Origin: Deltaproteobacteria bacterium
GTDB lineage: Bacteria > Desulfobacterota > GWC2-55-46
Assembly: GCA_020846435.1 (NCBI GenBank)
Contig: JADLDY010000063.1
Location: forward strand, 1 to 64,000
DNA: 64,000 bases
Direction: 5' to 3'
Shown here: piece after piece, positions 1,437 through 35,644 of the stretch
Layout: each line of letters opens with the position of its first letter
Numbering within the stretch: position 1 is the stretch's first letter
The notes under the pieces: model-generated
What the model was told of the DNA's origin: nothing
The model's input: the letters and a program-made list of their open reading frames with translations, nothing else
The model's database searches: none
Made by a program: the position numbers and the translations under genes

Positions 1437-2183
1437 CTAAACCTTCACGCCGATATGCACAGCCGCGATGCCGTTGAAGAGGTTATGGTACTTCACTCTC
1501 CACAGGCCCGAGTCTTCCATTATCTTCTTCAGCTCCTCCTGAGGAGGGAACTTCCTTATCGACTCCGGCAGGTACTCGTAAGCGCTCCTGTTGCCGGTTA
1601 TCATCTCGCCGACATTCGGGATGAATGAGAACGAGTAGAGGTCGTAGAGCTTCTTGAAGAGAGCGTTCGTGGGGTGCGAGAACTCCAGGCAGATGACCTT
1701 GCCGCCGGGCTTCACTACCCTCGTCATCTCGCTGAACGCCCTGTCCAGGTGCGTGACATTCCTTATGCCGAAGCCGACGGTCGCGCAGTGGAACGAGTTG
1801 TCCTCGAACGCTATCTCTTCTCCGTTGCCCTGCACGAAGCGGATGTTTTTAAGATAGCCCTTGTCTATGCACTTCTCATGGCCGACCTTGAGCATCTCGT
1901 GGTTGATATCGTAGACGACGACATTGCCCTTCTCACCGACCCTGTCTGCCATGAGTATCGAGATGTCTGCCGTGCCTCCGGCGACATCTATGGCCGACTG
2001 GCCCGGCCTGAGGCCCGTTTCAGAGGCCACGAACCTTTTCCAGAGCCTGTGCACGCCGAGGCTCATGAGGTCGTTCATGAGGTCGTACCTGGAAGCGACG
2101 GAGTCAAAGACTTCCCGTACCTTTTTTTCTTTTTCATGCTCGGGAATAGTCTGGTTACCGAAGTGGGTCATCTTTTCAGTCAT
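1437..2183 (-). CDS. ubiE: Ubiquinone/menaquinone biosynthesis C-methyltransferase
   Basis: A 248-residue class I SAM methyltransferase of the UbiE/MenG family, which C-methylates demethylmenaquinone or the corresponding ubiquinone precursor. Signature 1 (YDLMNDLMSLGVHRLWK) is at residues 33-49, motif I (IDVAGGTAD) at 65-73, and signature 2 begins RNVTHLDRAFSEM. The open frame extends 35 codons further upstream, but those codons translate an intergenic repeat (SPSPLVGEGRGEG). The true start is therefore the ATG at 2183, ten bases after AGAGGA. It lies downstream of ubiB and the CGGC gene in the same direction, separated from them by about 200 bp of repeats, so it may be transcribed separately or by read-through. 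Confidence 0.93.
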   Translation of the reverse strand: MTEKMTHFGNQTIPEHEKEKKVREVFDSVASRYDLMNDLMSLGVHRLWKRFVASETGLRPGQSAIDVAGGTADISILMADRVGEKGNVVVYDINHEMLKVGHEKCIDKGYLKNIRFVQGNGEEIAFEDNSFHCATVGFGIRNVTHLDRAFSEMTRVVKPGGKVICLEFSHPTNALFKKLYDLYSFSFIPNVGEMITGNRSAYEYLPESIRKFPPQEELKKIMEDSGLWRVKYHNLFNGIAAVHIGVKV

Positions 2184-30214: not shown

Positions 30215-31444
30215 CTACGCTACCGGAAACCCTTCGAGCATGCGGTTCAAAGAGACCGAGTCGAGCTGCTCCTGAAGGAGCGGGACGATGGTGGGGTTGT
30301 CCACCTCGCGCCTCACCTCTTTTCTTATCACGGTCAGGAACGGCTGGACGACATCCGGGTCGAACTGCTTCCCGAAGTTCGCCTTCACCTCGTCCATCGC
30401 CTCCCTGAACGAGAGCCTCGGCCTGTAAGGCCTGTCCGTCGTCATGGCGTCGAAGGCGTCTACCAGCGCCATTATCCGCGCGCCGATCGGTATGTCAGTC
30501 TTCTTGAGCCTGTCGGGGTAGCCCGAGCCGTCGACCTTCTCGTGGTGGTTCCTGGTCATCATCGGGATACCCTTCCAGGGGAACTTTATCTTGGAGAGTA
30601 TCTCGTAGCCAACGACCGGGTGGGAGTTCAATTCCCTGCACTCGTAGCTCGTCAAAGGGCTCGCCTTGTTTATTATGGTCTTGTCGACGGCAATCTTGCC
30701 GATGTCGTGGAGGAGCCCGGCTATCCTTATGCCCTCGACCTCCTCATGCGACCAGCCCATCTCCCTGGAGAGGACCGCGCTGTAAGCCGAGACCCTGTGC
30801 GAGTGCCCCCTTGTGTAGGAGTCCTTTGCGTCGATCGATGCCGCGAAGGCGTGGATGGTGTCGTAGTAAATCCTCCTGAGGTTCTCGTAGAGCCCCTTGT
30901 TCTCGTTGTACTTGTGCATGAGCCGCATGAGGAGCATGTGGCTGTGGAGCGAGAACGATATGTGCTGTGCCATGACGGAAAGGAGCTGGCAGTCGTAGAC
31001 CGAGAAGTCCTCGCCGGAGAATTTTCCGTTTATGGCGATGAAGCCCAAAAGCTCGTCTTTCACGACAAGACAGGCTATCATGCGGGCTTCCAGCTTCTCG
31101 AGCACACCGGCGGCCTCCCCGAGCGTCTCGACAGGGTGTTCGCCCTTTTTGAGGTCAATGGGCTTGTTGTGCTTCGTAAGGGCTGAGGCCGTCTCTTTGC
31201 TCAGCTTGACATGGGCCGCCCCGACATCCCCGAGCCCCTTTGAGGCGATAGGCGCGAATACGCCGCGGTCGCTGTCGAACTGGAATATGACGCCCTTGGT
31301 CGCCGAGAATGAGCCCATCACCATGTAAAGGGCTGACTTCACTACCCTCGTGAAGTCCTTTGGCGAGGTTATCTCCTCGCCGAGCTCCGCCAGAGTATTA
31401 AGATTGAAAAGGAGCTTTTCAAGGCTCAGGTCAGTCTGCAACAT
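30215..31444 (-). CDS. GAF-HD-GYP cyclic-di-GMP phosphodiesterase
   Basis: 409 residues: an N-terminal GAF-like sensor (about 15-165), then a full HD-GYP domain with RGHSHRVSAYSAV, LLHDIGKIAVD and NHHEKVDGSGYPDRL. The HD pair and GYP motif are intact, so hydrolysis of c-di-GMP is expected. The start ATG at 31444 follows GGAGG by 7 bases. It is the last gene of the operon, 40 bp after the STAS gene. Confidence 0.92.
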   Translation of the reverse strand: MLQTDLSLEKLLFNLNTLAELGEEITSPKDFTRVVKSALYMVMGSFSATKGVIFQFDSDRGVFAPIASKGLGDVGAAHVKLSKETASALTKHNKPIDLKKGEHPVETLGEAAGVLEKLEARMIACLVVKDELLGFIAINGKFSGEDFSVYDCQLLSVMAQHISFSLHSHMLLMRLMHKYNENKGLYENLRRIYYDTIHAFAASIDAKDSYTRGHSHRVSAYSAVLSREMGWSHEEVEGIRIAGLLHDIGKIAVDKTIINKASPLTSYECRELNSHPVVGYEILSKIKFPWKGIPMMTRNHHEKVDGSGYPDRLKKTDIPIGARIMALVDAFDAMTTDRPYRPRLSFREAMDEVKANFGKQFDPDVVQPFLTVIRKEVRREVDNPTIVPLLQEQLDSVSLNRMLEGFPVA

Positions 31445-31484
31445 CAAAGATCCTCCTTAAATAAACAAACCTGCCCAGAGTGCC

Positions 31485-31850
31485 TCAGGTCGTCACCATG
31501 CCCTGCCGGGCCCTCGCGTTCACGGCGTCTTCTTCCGTGTCAAAAATCTGTATGTGCTTTGTGAGGCCGACTATGCTGAAGATGTCGTGGTTGACCCTCT
31601 TCAAGCCTGAGAACGAAATCCTGCCCTTGGAGTCCCTTACCTTCTCTATTATGCCGATGAGTATGGACACTCCGATGGAGTTGACGAGGTCAGTCTCGGA
31701 AAAATCGATGACTATCCTGGTAAAGCCACGGTCAAGGTAGCTGGCGCACAGGTCTTCGAGCTTTTCGCCCTCTATGTCATTGATGTAATTGTCAGAGTAT
31801 ATGACGACGGCGTCTCCGATTTCCTTGAAGTTCCTATACTTCTTGACCAT
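31485..31850 (-). CDS. STAS-domain anti-anti-sigma factor
   Basis: 121 residues, a single SpoIIAA/RsbV-like STAS domain. The phosphorylation-site region reads VIDFSETDLVNSIGVSILIG, in which Ser58 takes the place of the regulatory serine. It would release a partner by binding the kinase domain encoded just upstream; the two genes overlap by 17 bp. Confidence 0.9.
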   Translation of the reverse strand: MVKKYRNFKEIGDAVVIYSDNYINDIEGEKLEDLCASYLDRGFTRIVIDFSETDLVNSIGVSILIGIIEKVRDSKGRISFSGLKRVNHDIFSIVGLTKHIQIFDTEEDAVNARARQGMVTT

Positions 31851-34062
31851 TCCTGCCGTCTCCTTTTTTTACCAGGTACTTGACGAGGACTATCTTGGCC
31901 CCGCCCCTGACCTTCTCCATCCTCACCTCGTCCATGAGCCCGCGCATGAGCTCGAAGCCCCAGCCCCTTTTTCTCGGGAGCCCGGCCTCAGCGTCCCTCG
32001 AAGCGCCTGAAGCGGCTGCCGCGTCGAAGTCAACCCCTGTGTTCTGGACGTATATGGTGAGCCTGTCGACCGAGGAAACGAACCTCAAAAACACCCTGGC
32101 CGTCCTGTTCCTGCTGTGCTCAAAACCGTTAATGCACGCCTCCACGAGAGCGGCCTTCATCTGGCCTATTGCCACCTCGTCAAAGCCCATCTCAGTGCCG
32201 ATCTCCTCTACCGCCCTCGCGGCCACCAGCTCGGCCTTCGTGGCCGAGGGAAGGACTACCTCGAACTCCTTGACCGGCACTATCTTCTCGGCTGTGCGGA
32301 GCCTCGAAGCCCCGTCAACGTCCCCGAGCCCTTCCTTGATTATCCTGAGCTGCACCGGGTCAGAGGAGTAGACGCCTTCGGAGTCCATCTTCTTCTGGGC
32401 CTCTGCGGTAAAGCCGTCCCTGCCTATCATCCATCTCACAAGCCTCGCTGCCCTGAAGTTCTCCCTGAGTATCATGGACCGCCTCAAGAAGTTCTCGACG
32501 TCCCCGAGGTTCACAGGGGACGGGGAATCCTTGACCGACACTATCCAGACGACCTCGCTGCCGGCGTCGTACCTGCCGTTCTGGAAGCCGTGCGCGACGA
32601 GTATCGGCGGGCCGGCTTCTCCTGACTCGAGGCGCATGGTGTCAAAGCTGCCGACGACCTGCGGCAGATCGAACTCCTCATCCTCCTTGCGGTCGGCAGA
32701 GACCTTGTACGCGCCGTTCTTGAACTTGGAATTGAAAGCCTGGTTTCTGAAAAGAACCTTCAGGATCTTCTGGTTGTTGAAAGACCTGACTATGCCTGAA
32801 GCCTCATTGAAAAGAGAGACGCTTATCCTGGAGCCCTTGAAGTCAAAGCCCTGCTTTAATACCTCTCTTGCCAGATATGTCCTGACCTCATCCGAGCTTC
32901 TGCCCTTGACCCTGGTCTCGTATATGAAGTAGACGAAGTCCTTTACCGTGGAATCGCCCGCCCACCTGACTGAGCCGAGGTTCACCTCTACGAGGCCCGC
33001 CCCGGAAAGGGAGTTGAGGATCTCCCTCATCTCGGGCGCGCTGAACCTGAAACGCTCCATGAGATCCTCGTCGGAGACAGGAAAGAGCGCTCCTGAGCAG
33101 GCGTGAAGGACCCTGAGGTCGTTTATGCTTTTGAGCCCCATCGCGGCGCGAAGGGCAAAGCCGATGTTGCCGTCAAAGAGCTCCTGCGTATAGAGGTCGG
33201 CGAAGTCCTTGAGGCTCTTGAGCTTCAAGCCTGACTTGGCGGCGGCCCACACGAGGCTCTTCAGGTACATCGGGTTGCCGTCGAGCCTGAAAGCCGCGAG
33301 CTTTAGCATCTCGGTGTCCGCGTCAACCCCATACTGGCGGCACAGGTCGATCATCATCGACGAGGACAAATCCTCGTCGAGACCATTCAATTCCATCGCC
33401 TCGATGGAGCCGAATACGCCGCCCTCAAGGACGCGCCTTGAAGAAGCGGCCGCGACGAACGAAAAATCGCTCGACGAAAGGGAGGATATCAGCTCCCTGG
33501 CGACTGCCGTGCTCCTGCCAAGAGGCCCCTGGTACTCGGCAAGGTCTATGTCATCCAATATCATGTATACGGGTATGCCTGAAAGCCGCGTTATGGCCAG
33601 AGGCGCGTGCATCGCGTTCTTCAGCGCGGCCGACGCGTCCCCTGACTTCCTCGCCTCCCTGTGGAGGGCGGCGATGTCGGCGAGCCCGTACATGTCGTTG
33701 TCGACGAGGAGCTTTTCTATCTTGTCAAGCGAGATCCCGTCGCGGACGAATTTGGGCTCCCTCATCCTGAAGGCAAGGTACTGCTTCAGGACTTCCTTCA
33801 GGTAGTCCTCGGAGAAGTCCTCGACAGTGCCGTAGCCCTTGAACTGGTAGTAGACAGGCACGCACCTGGCCTGTCCCCAGAACAGGTTGTGGAATACCCT
33901 CCTCAAGACCTCTGTCTTGCCTGTCCACCTGCCTCCGAAGAGCAGTATGGAAGGGGCCGGGCGCCTCTCGGAAGAGGCCCGCCTCAATATGCTGTCTATC
34001 TCGGAGACCCTGCCAAAGAACTCGCCATCAGGGCACGTCGCGAAAAGCGCCCTATGCTTCAT
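31834..34062 (-). CDS. AAA/STAND ATPase fused to RsbW-like serine kinase (HATPase) domain
   Basis: 742 residues. N-terminal P-loop ATPase: Walker A GGRWTGKT (43-50) and Walker B VYMILDDID (165-173), then winged-helix-like regulatory sequence to about 400 and an unassigned middle. The C-terminal 130 residues are a Bergerat-fold anti-sigma kinase: ALVEACINGFEH (N box), VQNTGVDFD (G1, with Asn where Asp is usual) and RKRGWGFELMRGLMDE (G2). RsbW-type kinases are usually stand-alone proteins of about 150 residues, so the fusion is unusual. It overlaps the GGDEF gene by 11 bp and the STAS gene by 17 bp. Confidence 0.82.
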   Translation of the reverse strand: MKHRALFATCPDGEFFGRVSEIDSILRRASSERRPAPSILLFGGRWTGKTEVLRRVFHNLFWGQARCVPVYYQFKGYGTVEDFSEDYLKEVLKQYLAFRMREPKFVRDGISLDKIEKLLVDNDMYGLADIAALHREARKSGDASAALKNAMHAPLAITRLSGIPVYMILDDIDLAEYQGPLGRSTAVARELISSLSSSDFSFVAAASSRRVLEGGVFGSIEAMELNGLDEDLSSSMMIDLCRQYGVDADTEMLKLAAFRLDGNPMYLKSLVWAAAKSGLKLKSLKDFADLYTQELFDGNIGFALRAAMGLKSINDLRVLHACSGALFPVSDEDLMERFRFSAPEMREILNSLSGAGLVEVNLGSVRWAGDSTVKDFVYFIYETRVKGRSSDEVRTYLAREVLKQGFDFKGSRISVSLFNEASGIVRSFNNQKILKVLFRNQAFNSKFKNGAYKVSADRKEDEEFDLPQVVGSFDTMRLESGEAGPPILVAHGFQNGRYDAGSEVVWIVSVKDSPSPVNLGDVENFLRRSMILRENFRAARLVRWMIGRDGFTAEAQKKMDSEGVYSSDPVQLRIIKEGLGDVDGASRLRTAEKIVPVKEFEVVLPSATKAELVAARAVEEIGTEMGFDEVAIGQMKAALVEACINGFEHSRNRTARVFLRFVSSVDRLTIYVQNTGVDFDAAAASGASRDAEAGLPRKRGWGFELMRGLMDEVRMEKVRGGAKIVLVKYLVKKGDGRNGQEV

Positions 34063-35644
34063 AAACTACCACTCTGTTCTTTCCCATCCTCTTGGCAAGA
34101 TACATGGCCCTGTCGGCCTTGTTTATCAGGTCGTCTATATGGCTCGCGTCCGCCGGAAACTCGGCGACCCCGAGGCTTATGGTCGGCCACTCTTCGAATA
34201 TGCTGTGAGCGGGCCTGTAATCCTGCACGCCCTTTCTCATCCTCTCGGCTATTATGCTCGCGTCCCTCTTGTCGGTGTGCGGGAGGATTACCGCGAACTC
34301 TTCGCCGCCGTAGCGCGCTACCACGTCCATCGACCTCACCGCGTCCTTTACCGCCTTGGAGACGCCCTTCAGGAGCTCGTCGCCGGCCAGATGCCCGTAC
34401 CTGTCGTTGAAGGACTTGAAGTTGTCTATGTCTATGATGAAGGTCGAGAAGCGGCCGTCATGCCTCTTGACCCTTTCGACTTCCTCGTAGAGCCTCTCCC
34501 TGAAGTACCTGCGGTTGAAAAGGCCGGTCAACGGGTCTGTCATGGAAAGCGTCTTCAGCTCTTCTGACATGCTGTAATACGCGCCGCGCTCGATCGCGAT
34601 GGAGGCGTAGTTGGCGAACGAAAGCAGCAGGTGCAAATCCTCTTCGGAGAAGGTGCCGCCTGAGAGCTTGTCAGAGACGTTTATGACGCCTATGACCCGG
34701 TTCTCGAGCTTCAACGGTATCGAGATGAACGACTTTGTCCTGTACCTGGCCCTGTTCTTCCAGGACGGGACCTCGTCCTCTATGTCCCTTACTATGACCG
34801 GCACGCCCTTGGCCGCTATCGCCCCTGAGATGCCCTCGCCGACCTTGACCCTGAGCCCGTCAACCAATGACTTGTCCATGCCGCGCGCGGCCTTGATGGA
34901 CAGGAGGTTGTTCTTGTTGTCGAGTATCATCAATGAGCCCTGGCGCGCGCCGACCAGCTCGGAGGACTTCACCAGGATAGTCTCGTAGAGCTCCTCCCTG
35001 TCGAGGACAGGAGCTATGGCCTTGTAGACCTGCTCGAGCGCGTAGAAACCCTTGAGGCGCGCGGCCGAAGCGTCAGAGACCCCTTTTTCAGCGGCCGCCA
35101 TGACGGAACGCAATACAGGGGCGGCCATGTTGTTGACTATCGAAGGGATGGTGAAGAGCGCCTTGGGAGGTATGGTCTTGACCTCTGCCCTGAGCTTCGA
35201 GACCGTCTCCCCGTCGAACCCGTACCCTGTGATGCCTTCGTAGAAGTCCTTTATGTCGCTTCCCTCGAGATATACATGCCCCCCGACGGCGACAAAGGCG
35301 TACCTCGCGTCCACGACCACCGGGATGGCGAAGAAGTACTGGTTGGCGTGGCACTTGTAGACATAGACGTTGCCTGTCTCCACTACCTGGGCGACCGAAC
35401 TGGCGATAAACTCGGAGCACTGGGCCGCGCCCTTCGGGCAGCCCTGTACCGCGGCGCACACCGGGCTCTCCTTCATGGACGGGACAAGGAGGGCTCCTGA
35501 GGCGTCATAGAGGCTGAGCGGTATGTCCAGGAGAAGCGAAACGCCGTTCTGGAACTCGCGCCACGACGACAGGTCAAGCGCTTCTGGCAACGAAGCGTAG
35601 CCGGTTTTTTTCAGCATATCCTTACCGCGGGCATCTGGTAGCAT
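34052..35644 (-). CDS. PocR-GAF-GGDEF diguanylate cyclase
   Basis: 530 residues. An N-terminal PocR-type sensory domain (about 25-170) has Cys63, Cys69, Cys76 and Cys98, which could bind a ligand or cluster. A GAF domain spans about 205-355. The GGDEF domain has the active GGEEF (446-450) with an inhibitory I-site RSMD five residues before it, so it should make c-di-GMP with product feedback. I chose the ATG at 35644 (MLPDARGKD) because the longer frame runs back through a terminator. An ATG 9 codons later is possible. Confidence 0.9.
   Translation of the reverse strand: MLPDARGKDMLKKTGYASLPEALDLSSWREFQNGVSLLLDIPLSLYDASGALLVPSMKESPVCAAVQGCPKGAAQCSEFIASSVAQVVETGNVYVYKCHANQYFFAIPVVVDARYAFVAVGGHVYLEGSDIKDFYEGITGYGFDGETVSKLRAEVKTIPPKALFTIPSIVNNMAAPVLRSVMAAAEKGVSDASAARLKGFYALEQVYKAIAPVLDREELYETILVKSSELVGARQGSLMILDNKNNLLSIKAARGMDKSLVDGLRVKVGEGISGAIAAKGVPVIVRDIEDEVPSWKNRARYRTKSFISIPLKLENRVIGVINVSDKLSGGTFSEEDLHLLLSFANYASIAIERGAYYSMSEELKTLSMTDPLTGLFNRRYFRERLYEEVERVKRHDGRFSTFIIDIDNFKSFNDRYGHLAGDELLKGVSKAVKDAVRSMDVVARYGGEEFAVILPHTDKRDASIIAERMRKGVQDYRPAHSIFEEWPTISLGVAEFPADASHIDDLINKADRAMYLAKRMGKNRVVVYEA

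Follow-up and report, generated by a model that had tools for sequence, protein, structure and literature searches.

Partner switching is already known to control diguanylate cyclases. In Pseudomonas aeruginosa, the kinase SiaB and the phospho-acceptor SiaC of the SiaABCD system control the diguanylate cyclase SiaD (PMC7647112, PMC8457831), and the STAS protein HsbA (Ser56) of the HptB-HsbR-HsbA-HsbD pathway binds and controls a diguanylate cyclase according to its phosphorylation state (PMC5085249). In the Moorella thermoacetica stressosome, the GHKL switch kinase of the MtT/MtG pair is reported to act on a diguanylate cyclase (PMC7647112, PMC4976288). The locus considered here consists of four minus-strand genes (35644..30215) within a window of 64,000 nucleotides, i.e. 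the whole stretch of DNA that was analysed, from a Deltaproteobacteria bacterium (contig JADLDY010000063.1). It resembles SiaABCD in that a kinase, a STAS-like acceptor and a diguanylate cyclase share one operon and in that its proposed output is not a sigma factor. However, the SiaABCD operon includes a PP2C phosphatase (SiaA) and lacks a phosphodiesterase, its kinase stands alone, and SiaC is phosphorylated on Thr68, whereas in the HsbA-HsbD pathway the kinase lies within the response regulator HsbR, sigma control is also fed, and there is neither a STAND fusion nor an HD-GYP partner. Relative to both Pseudomonas systems, a STAND receptor would replace the separate input, and PP2C is lacking. 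The Moorella system differs as an RsbT/RsbS/RsbR stressosome with a single-domain kinase.

The locus is also related to two better-known groups of proteins. With RsbW/RsbV and SpoIIAB/SpoIIAA it shares the kinase fold, the Glu and Asn of the N box and the STAS serine; those pairs, however, have a sigma factor as client, a PP2C phosphatase, an Asp in the G1 box and no ATPase fusion. With the STAND NTPases (the archaeal 2qen/2fna type, plant NLRs and Avs) it shares Walker A and B motifs, a winged helix and a fold match, and it resembles Avs in architecture by having a PD-(D/E)XK-like domain after the ATPase, whereas the effector of the fusion is a GHKL kinase and its nuclease-like domain is without the acid of the (D/E)xK motif. 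Our leading interpretation, to which we assign a probability of roughly 58 %, is a STAND-gated partner switch that controls the c-di-GMP enzymes encoded alongside it and has no sigma-factor output.

The four genes are flanked by two strong intrinsic terminators, one behind secF on the upstream side (35920-35889, minus strand; a 13-bp stem with 11 GC pairs, then a T-run) and the other behind the HD-GYP gene (30196-30168, minus strand; a 12-bp stem, then a T-run). The operon is preceded by tgt, (yajC), secD and secF on its upstream side; recJ and a lytic transglycosylase gene follow it downstream. The kinase gene shares 11 nt with the cyclase gene and 17 nt with the STAS gene, and the STAS stop is separated from the HD-GYP start by approximately 40 nt. 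All of the genes and motifs named in a first-pass annotation of this DNA were found where it had placed them, and the overlaps and bounding terminators support its description of a single coupled operon.

The first gene (35644..34052, minus strand) encodes, according to Pfam/NCBIfam, a PocR-GAF-GGDEF diguanylate cyclase (Pfam E-values of 2.6e-18 for PocR, 1.3e-19 for GAF_2 and 6.2e-49 for GGDEF) with an intact GGEEF active site, kept in 25 aligned rows, and an intact, likewise conserved RxxD I-site; its start codon is uncertain, the reading frame being open from 35752. The fourth gene (31444..30215, minus strand) encodes a GAF-HD-GYP phosphodiesterase (HD_5, 1.7e-39; GAF_3, 3.1e-6) in which HDIGK and HHExxDGSGYP are intact, and the HD-GYP proteins of the relatives keep HDxGK and HHExxDGxGYP. 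As its start, the ATG at 31444, behind AAGGAGG, is better placed than the TTG at 31447. Judged by these motifs, the two proteins are probably an active diguanylate cyclase and an active HD-GYP phosphodiesterase, and the operon does hold, as had been proposed, a maker and a breaker of c-di-GMP. An apparent loss of PocR in families f11 and f12, suggested by an alignment gap, proved wrong; Pfam detects PocR there, together with an extra GAF domain. Since the genome yields 15 GGDEF, nine clear HD-GYP and 13 PilZ matches, c-di-GMP is a major signal in this organism.

The second gene (34062..31834, minus strand) encodes a fusion protein of 742 aa comprising, in order, a STAND/AAA ATPase, a winged helix, a degenerate PD-(D/E)XK-like domain (approximately aa 465-580) and an RsbW-like GHKL kinase (aa 600-730). 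Pfam matches HATPase_c_2 at 6.3e-14 and, under the curated cut-off, AAA_16 at 1.2e-5. The ATPase carries GGRWTGKT as Walker A and ILDDID as Walker B, and GxxWxGKT and LDD are kept in relatives. In an AlphaFold model of the full fusion (mean pLDDT 79.9, pTM 0.56), the predicted ATPase and winged helix are STAND/Orc-like, with Foldseek matches to 1fnn, 2qen, 2fna and plant NLRs, and the features by which STAND NTPases are recognized (a P-loop, an hhhhDD/DxD Walker B and a winged helix) are present by motif, model and Foldseek alike. The closest sequence match of the kinase domain is RsbW/SpoIIAB, and its predicted structure aligns with RsbW of the RsbV/RsbW complex at a TM to target of about 0.9 in Foldseek. 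The proposal of an AAA/STAND ATPase joined to an RsbW-like kinase is thus upheld by Pfam, motifs, AlphaFold and Foldseek. Modelled alone, the middle domain reaches a pLDDT of 85.4 and a pTM of 0.81; its top Foldseek matches are the PD-(D/E)XK nucleases MspJI, EndoMS and AF1548, an assignment that is weak because the best E-value is 1.8e-3. An active nuclease was rejected on that value and on the (D/E)xK position, which is without an acid in 30 sequences.

The third gene (31850..31485, minus strand) encodes a single-domain STAS protein of 121 aa and of the RsbV/SpoIIAA type (Pfam STAS, 1.9e-11). Its Ser58, the residue singled out by the first-pass annotation, does align with Ser58 of SpoIIAA and is invariant in 23 relatives as well as in other clades. 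The only other STAS protein of the genome (L125, approximately 1553-1806, plus strand), encoded after a CheY-like gene, contains a DSSGL motif.

Within the kinase domain, the catalytic Glu641 and the Mg-binding Asn645 of the N box are invariant in 26 sequences. In GHKL ATPases, the Asp of the G1 box contacts the adenine, and other members of this superfamily, e.g. Hsp90, no longer bind ATP once it is changed to Asn. Every sequence of the class to which the organism belongs has Asn at this ATP-contacting position, and f39, f22 and f20, three families of other clades, have Asp; the invariant Asn may therefore weaken ATP binding by the class kinase. Together with the lack of a SpoIIE-type PP2C phosphatase in 30 of the 33 sampled class members that carry the fusion (it is present in the other three), the Asn and its Hsp90 precedent favour a nucleotide-gated sequestration, whereby the GHKL domain of the class would be a binding platform (a pseudokinase or a very weak ATPase) that does not phosphorylate, and the ATP/ADP state of the STAND domain would decide whether the STAS protein is held or released, so that no phosphatase would be needed. 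We consider this rather unlikely; a dead kinase would need neither the N-box Glu nor the Mg-binding Asn nor Ser58 of the STAS protein, all of which are invariant. Moreover, f39 keeps the Asp, yet PP2C is missing in 14 of 14 f39 carriers, and thus the missing phosphatase does not track the Asn. Because members of the class that do not carry the fusion are mostly without the phosphatase too, its absence is a trait of the lineages and no proof of a link to the switch.

The home assembly is rated 100 % complete, and its seven sigma-70 factors comprise two of the RpoD type, three RpoS-like, one of the RpoH type and one FliA. At NCBIfam cut-offs, no SigB/SigF-type sigma factor was found in the complete genome; nor was a SpoIIE-type or PP2C_2 phosphatase, and the sole RsbW-like protein over the Pfam cut-off is the fusion kinase of the operon. 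None of the loci that were read has a sigma gene within or beside the operon. The term 'anti-sigma system', as applied to the locus at first pass, is not sustained by this inventory, and, given the missing SigB/SigF-type factors and PP2C, we rejected sigma control as the main explanation. In its classical form, an anti-sigma switch here would have the RsbW-like domain sequester an RpoS-like factor or FliA and the STAS protein release it, with the c-di-GMP enzymes being parallel outputs or inputs. The close match of the kinase domain to RsbW/SpoIIAB, the three RpoS-like factors and FliA, and a P. aeruginosa partner switch that is reported to feed RpoS and motility all speak for such an arrangement; set against the missing sigma factors, phosphatase and neighbouring sigma gene, they leave it improbable.

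Among 78 relatives, 34 have the fusion kinase, one of them as a weak match to the kinase domain only. The first-pass annotation had proposed a search of other genomes for the four-gene order, and GGDEF-KIN-STAS-HDGYP indeed recurs in no fewer than 23 further genomes of the class, including one where a frameshift or an error of assembly interrupts the kinase gene and others where the HD-GYP gene ends at a contig end; with such recurrence, the arrangement is not due to chance. Of 27 distinct loci, 26 show exactly this 11-nt overlap of the cyclase and kinase genes. Among named relatives, the Deltaproteobacteria MAG GWA2_54_12 is the closest. In the home family the cassette lies between secF and recJ, and in f11/f12 it has priA and def upstream and the formyltransferase gene fmt downstream (one locus checked). 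One relative has a TPR-repeat gene (L034:4194-5903, minus strand) inserted between the HD-GYP gene and recJ. A search of plasmids found no relative.

Other clades retain parts of the unit. Family f39, from a second class (L091-L103), keeps the kinase-STAS pair beside a divergent TIGR03960-like radical-SAM/DUF2344 gene, has no GGDEF gene nearby, and has an adjoining HD-GYP gene in about half of its loci only. Uninterrupted frames of 1531-1672 aa at f39 loci were not accepted at full length, since their front part is probably non-coding and the radical-SAM gene of sister loci runs in the opposite direction. Families f22 and f97 retain kinase, STAS and HD-GYP genes without the cyclase, and in f20/f34 (L108, L109 and L110) a stand-alone RsbW-like kinase, from which the STAND part is missing, and a STAS protein are followed by a GAF-histidine kinase in place of HD-GYP. 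Elsewhere, a 580-aa AAA-GHKL fusion without the middle domain (L104:2732-4474, plus strand) precedes STAS and GAF-HD-GYP genes, next to TPR and sugar-transferase genes. In G291, one of the genomes with a stand-alone kinase, the contig of that locus also encodes a SpoIIE phosphatase, at a distance of about 6 kb. Since they are retained across f39, f22/f97 and f20/f34, a kinase, a STAS protein and a GAF-bearing effector make up the common core. Of the two c-di-GMP enzymes, the phosphodiesterase seems to have been the partner for longer, as the f39 pair often has an HD-GYP gene and no cyclase nearby, and the cyclase would be an addition in this class, a direction suggested by presence and absence rather than by a rooted tree.

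That the cyclase is missing from the unit in other clades, and that the evidence is genomic, would also fit mere co-transcription, i.e. four signalling genes under one promoter for one condition with no physical coupling. We hold this to be very unlikely, because order and overlaps are fixed over 40-88 % kinase identity and in two independent contexts, and because the kinase, STAS protein and GAF effector stay together though the type of effector changes. Correlations of protein distance among the four proteins are high, yet equally high with secD; they therefore reflect vertical descent and say nothing on interaction.

Beyond the interval covered by the first-pass annotation, the leader that runs from the secF terminator to the start of the cyclase gene is also conserved and has a terminator of its own. 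Its hairpin P1 (35733-35719, minus strand; GGCUC-AAGGC-GGGCC) has an ANGRN loop and an invariant U-G pair, and its consensus, GRCUC-ANGRN-GGGYC, with a compensatory GC-to-AU change, is kept in at least 12 relatives. A second hairpin, AGGC-AAGAU-GCC, overlaps the intrinsic terminator (together 35712-35664, minus strand), whose stem (35703-35673) is conserved in the alignment and whose T-run (35672-35664) directly precedes the cyclase start; this hairpin is a possible antiterminator. A covariance model, R1, scores the home leader at 77.5 bits and also detects the element in members of f1 and f7. Over the portion of the home genome that was read (about 1.5 of 2.4 Mb), only two other strong matches occur, C36 (L162:5320-5412, plus strand; 50.8 bits), itself a training sequence of the model, and C1 (L164:425-522, minus strand; 36.2 bits, E 3.8e-8), which was outside the training set. 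Each directly precedes a gene for a paired-CXXCH (multihaem-type) cytochrome, supported by Pfam for C36 and judged by similar sequence for C1, where the gene ends at the contig end. No Rfam family reaches its gathering score in the window, matches to the leader being at chance level, and a GEMM riboswitch was rejected for want of Rfam support. Also rejected was a two-hairpin leader of the ANTAR type; the loops do not agree with that motif, and the portion of the genome that was read gave no ANTAR protein with a crude regular expression. The leader is likely an attenuator or riboswitch-like element.

Under the preferred, sigma-free interpretation, the RsbW-like domain would bind the STAS protein and most likely phosphorylate Ser58, and the free or phosphorylated STAS protein (or the kinase) would dock on those enzymes of the operon that bear a GAF domain. 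The chief target would be the GAF-HD-GYP phosphodiesterase, with the PocR-GAF-GGDEF cyclase as a further one in this class, and the balance of c-di-GMP synthesis against breakdown would thereby shift. The STAND ATPase at the N terminus would gate the kinase through nucleotide- or ligand-dependent opening or assembly. We infer these functions, from protein contacts, phosphorylation and the direction of the effect to STAND gating and a reset of the STAS protein without PP2C, from the conserved order in two contexts, the bounding terminators, the GAF-effector core, the invariant Glu641, Asn645 and Ser58, the RsbW fold match, the lack of PP2C and SigB/SigF-type factors, the single RsbW-like protein, and the SiaC-SiaD and HsbA-HsbD precedents. 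Against this interpretation stand the invariant Asn of the G1 box, the lack of a known phosphatase that would reset the STAS protein, the RpoS-like factors and FliA as possible clients, and the separation of HD-GYP and STAS genes in about half of the f39 loci. A fuller version, in which the STAND ATPase of a phosphatase-free switch behaves like a nucleotide-loaded receptor and directly sets the kinase and STAS protein onto both phosphodiesterase and cyclase, with the operon controlled by an as yet undescribed attenuator RNA that multihaem cytochrome genes have as well, is put forward only tentatively.

The unusual features of the locus are the fusion of STAND, degenerate PD-(D/E)XK-like and RsbW domains, the invariant Asn, the HD-GYP partner, the missing phosphatase and the leader RNA. 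The earlier statement that such a switch is not described holds in part: SiaABCD, HsbA-HsbD and the Moorella system are partner switches on cyclases, but the literature found contains no description of a STAND-fused switch kinase, of HD-GYP as a conserved partner or of a phosphatase-free switch. If the preferred interpretation is true, partner switching would have been freed from sigma factors and PP2C and wired to both breakdown and synthesis of c-di-GMP. Its STAND input would bring into second-messenger signalling a class of receptors known mostly from immunity and the control of transcription, and through the leader RNA that they share, the switch would be tied to the expression of cytochromes.
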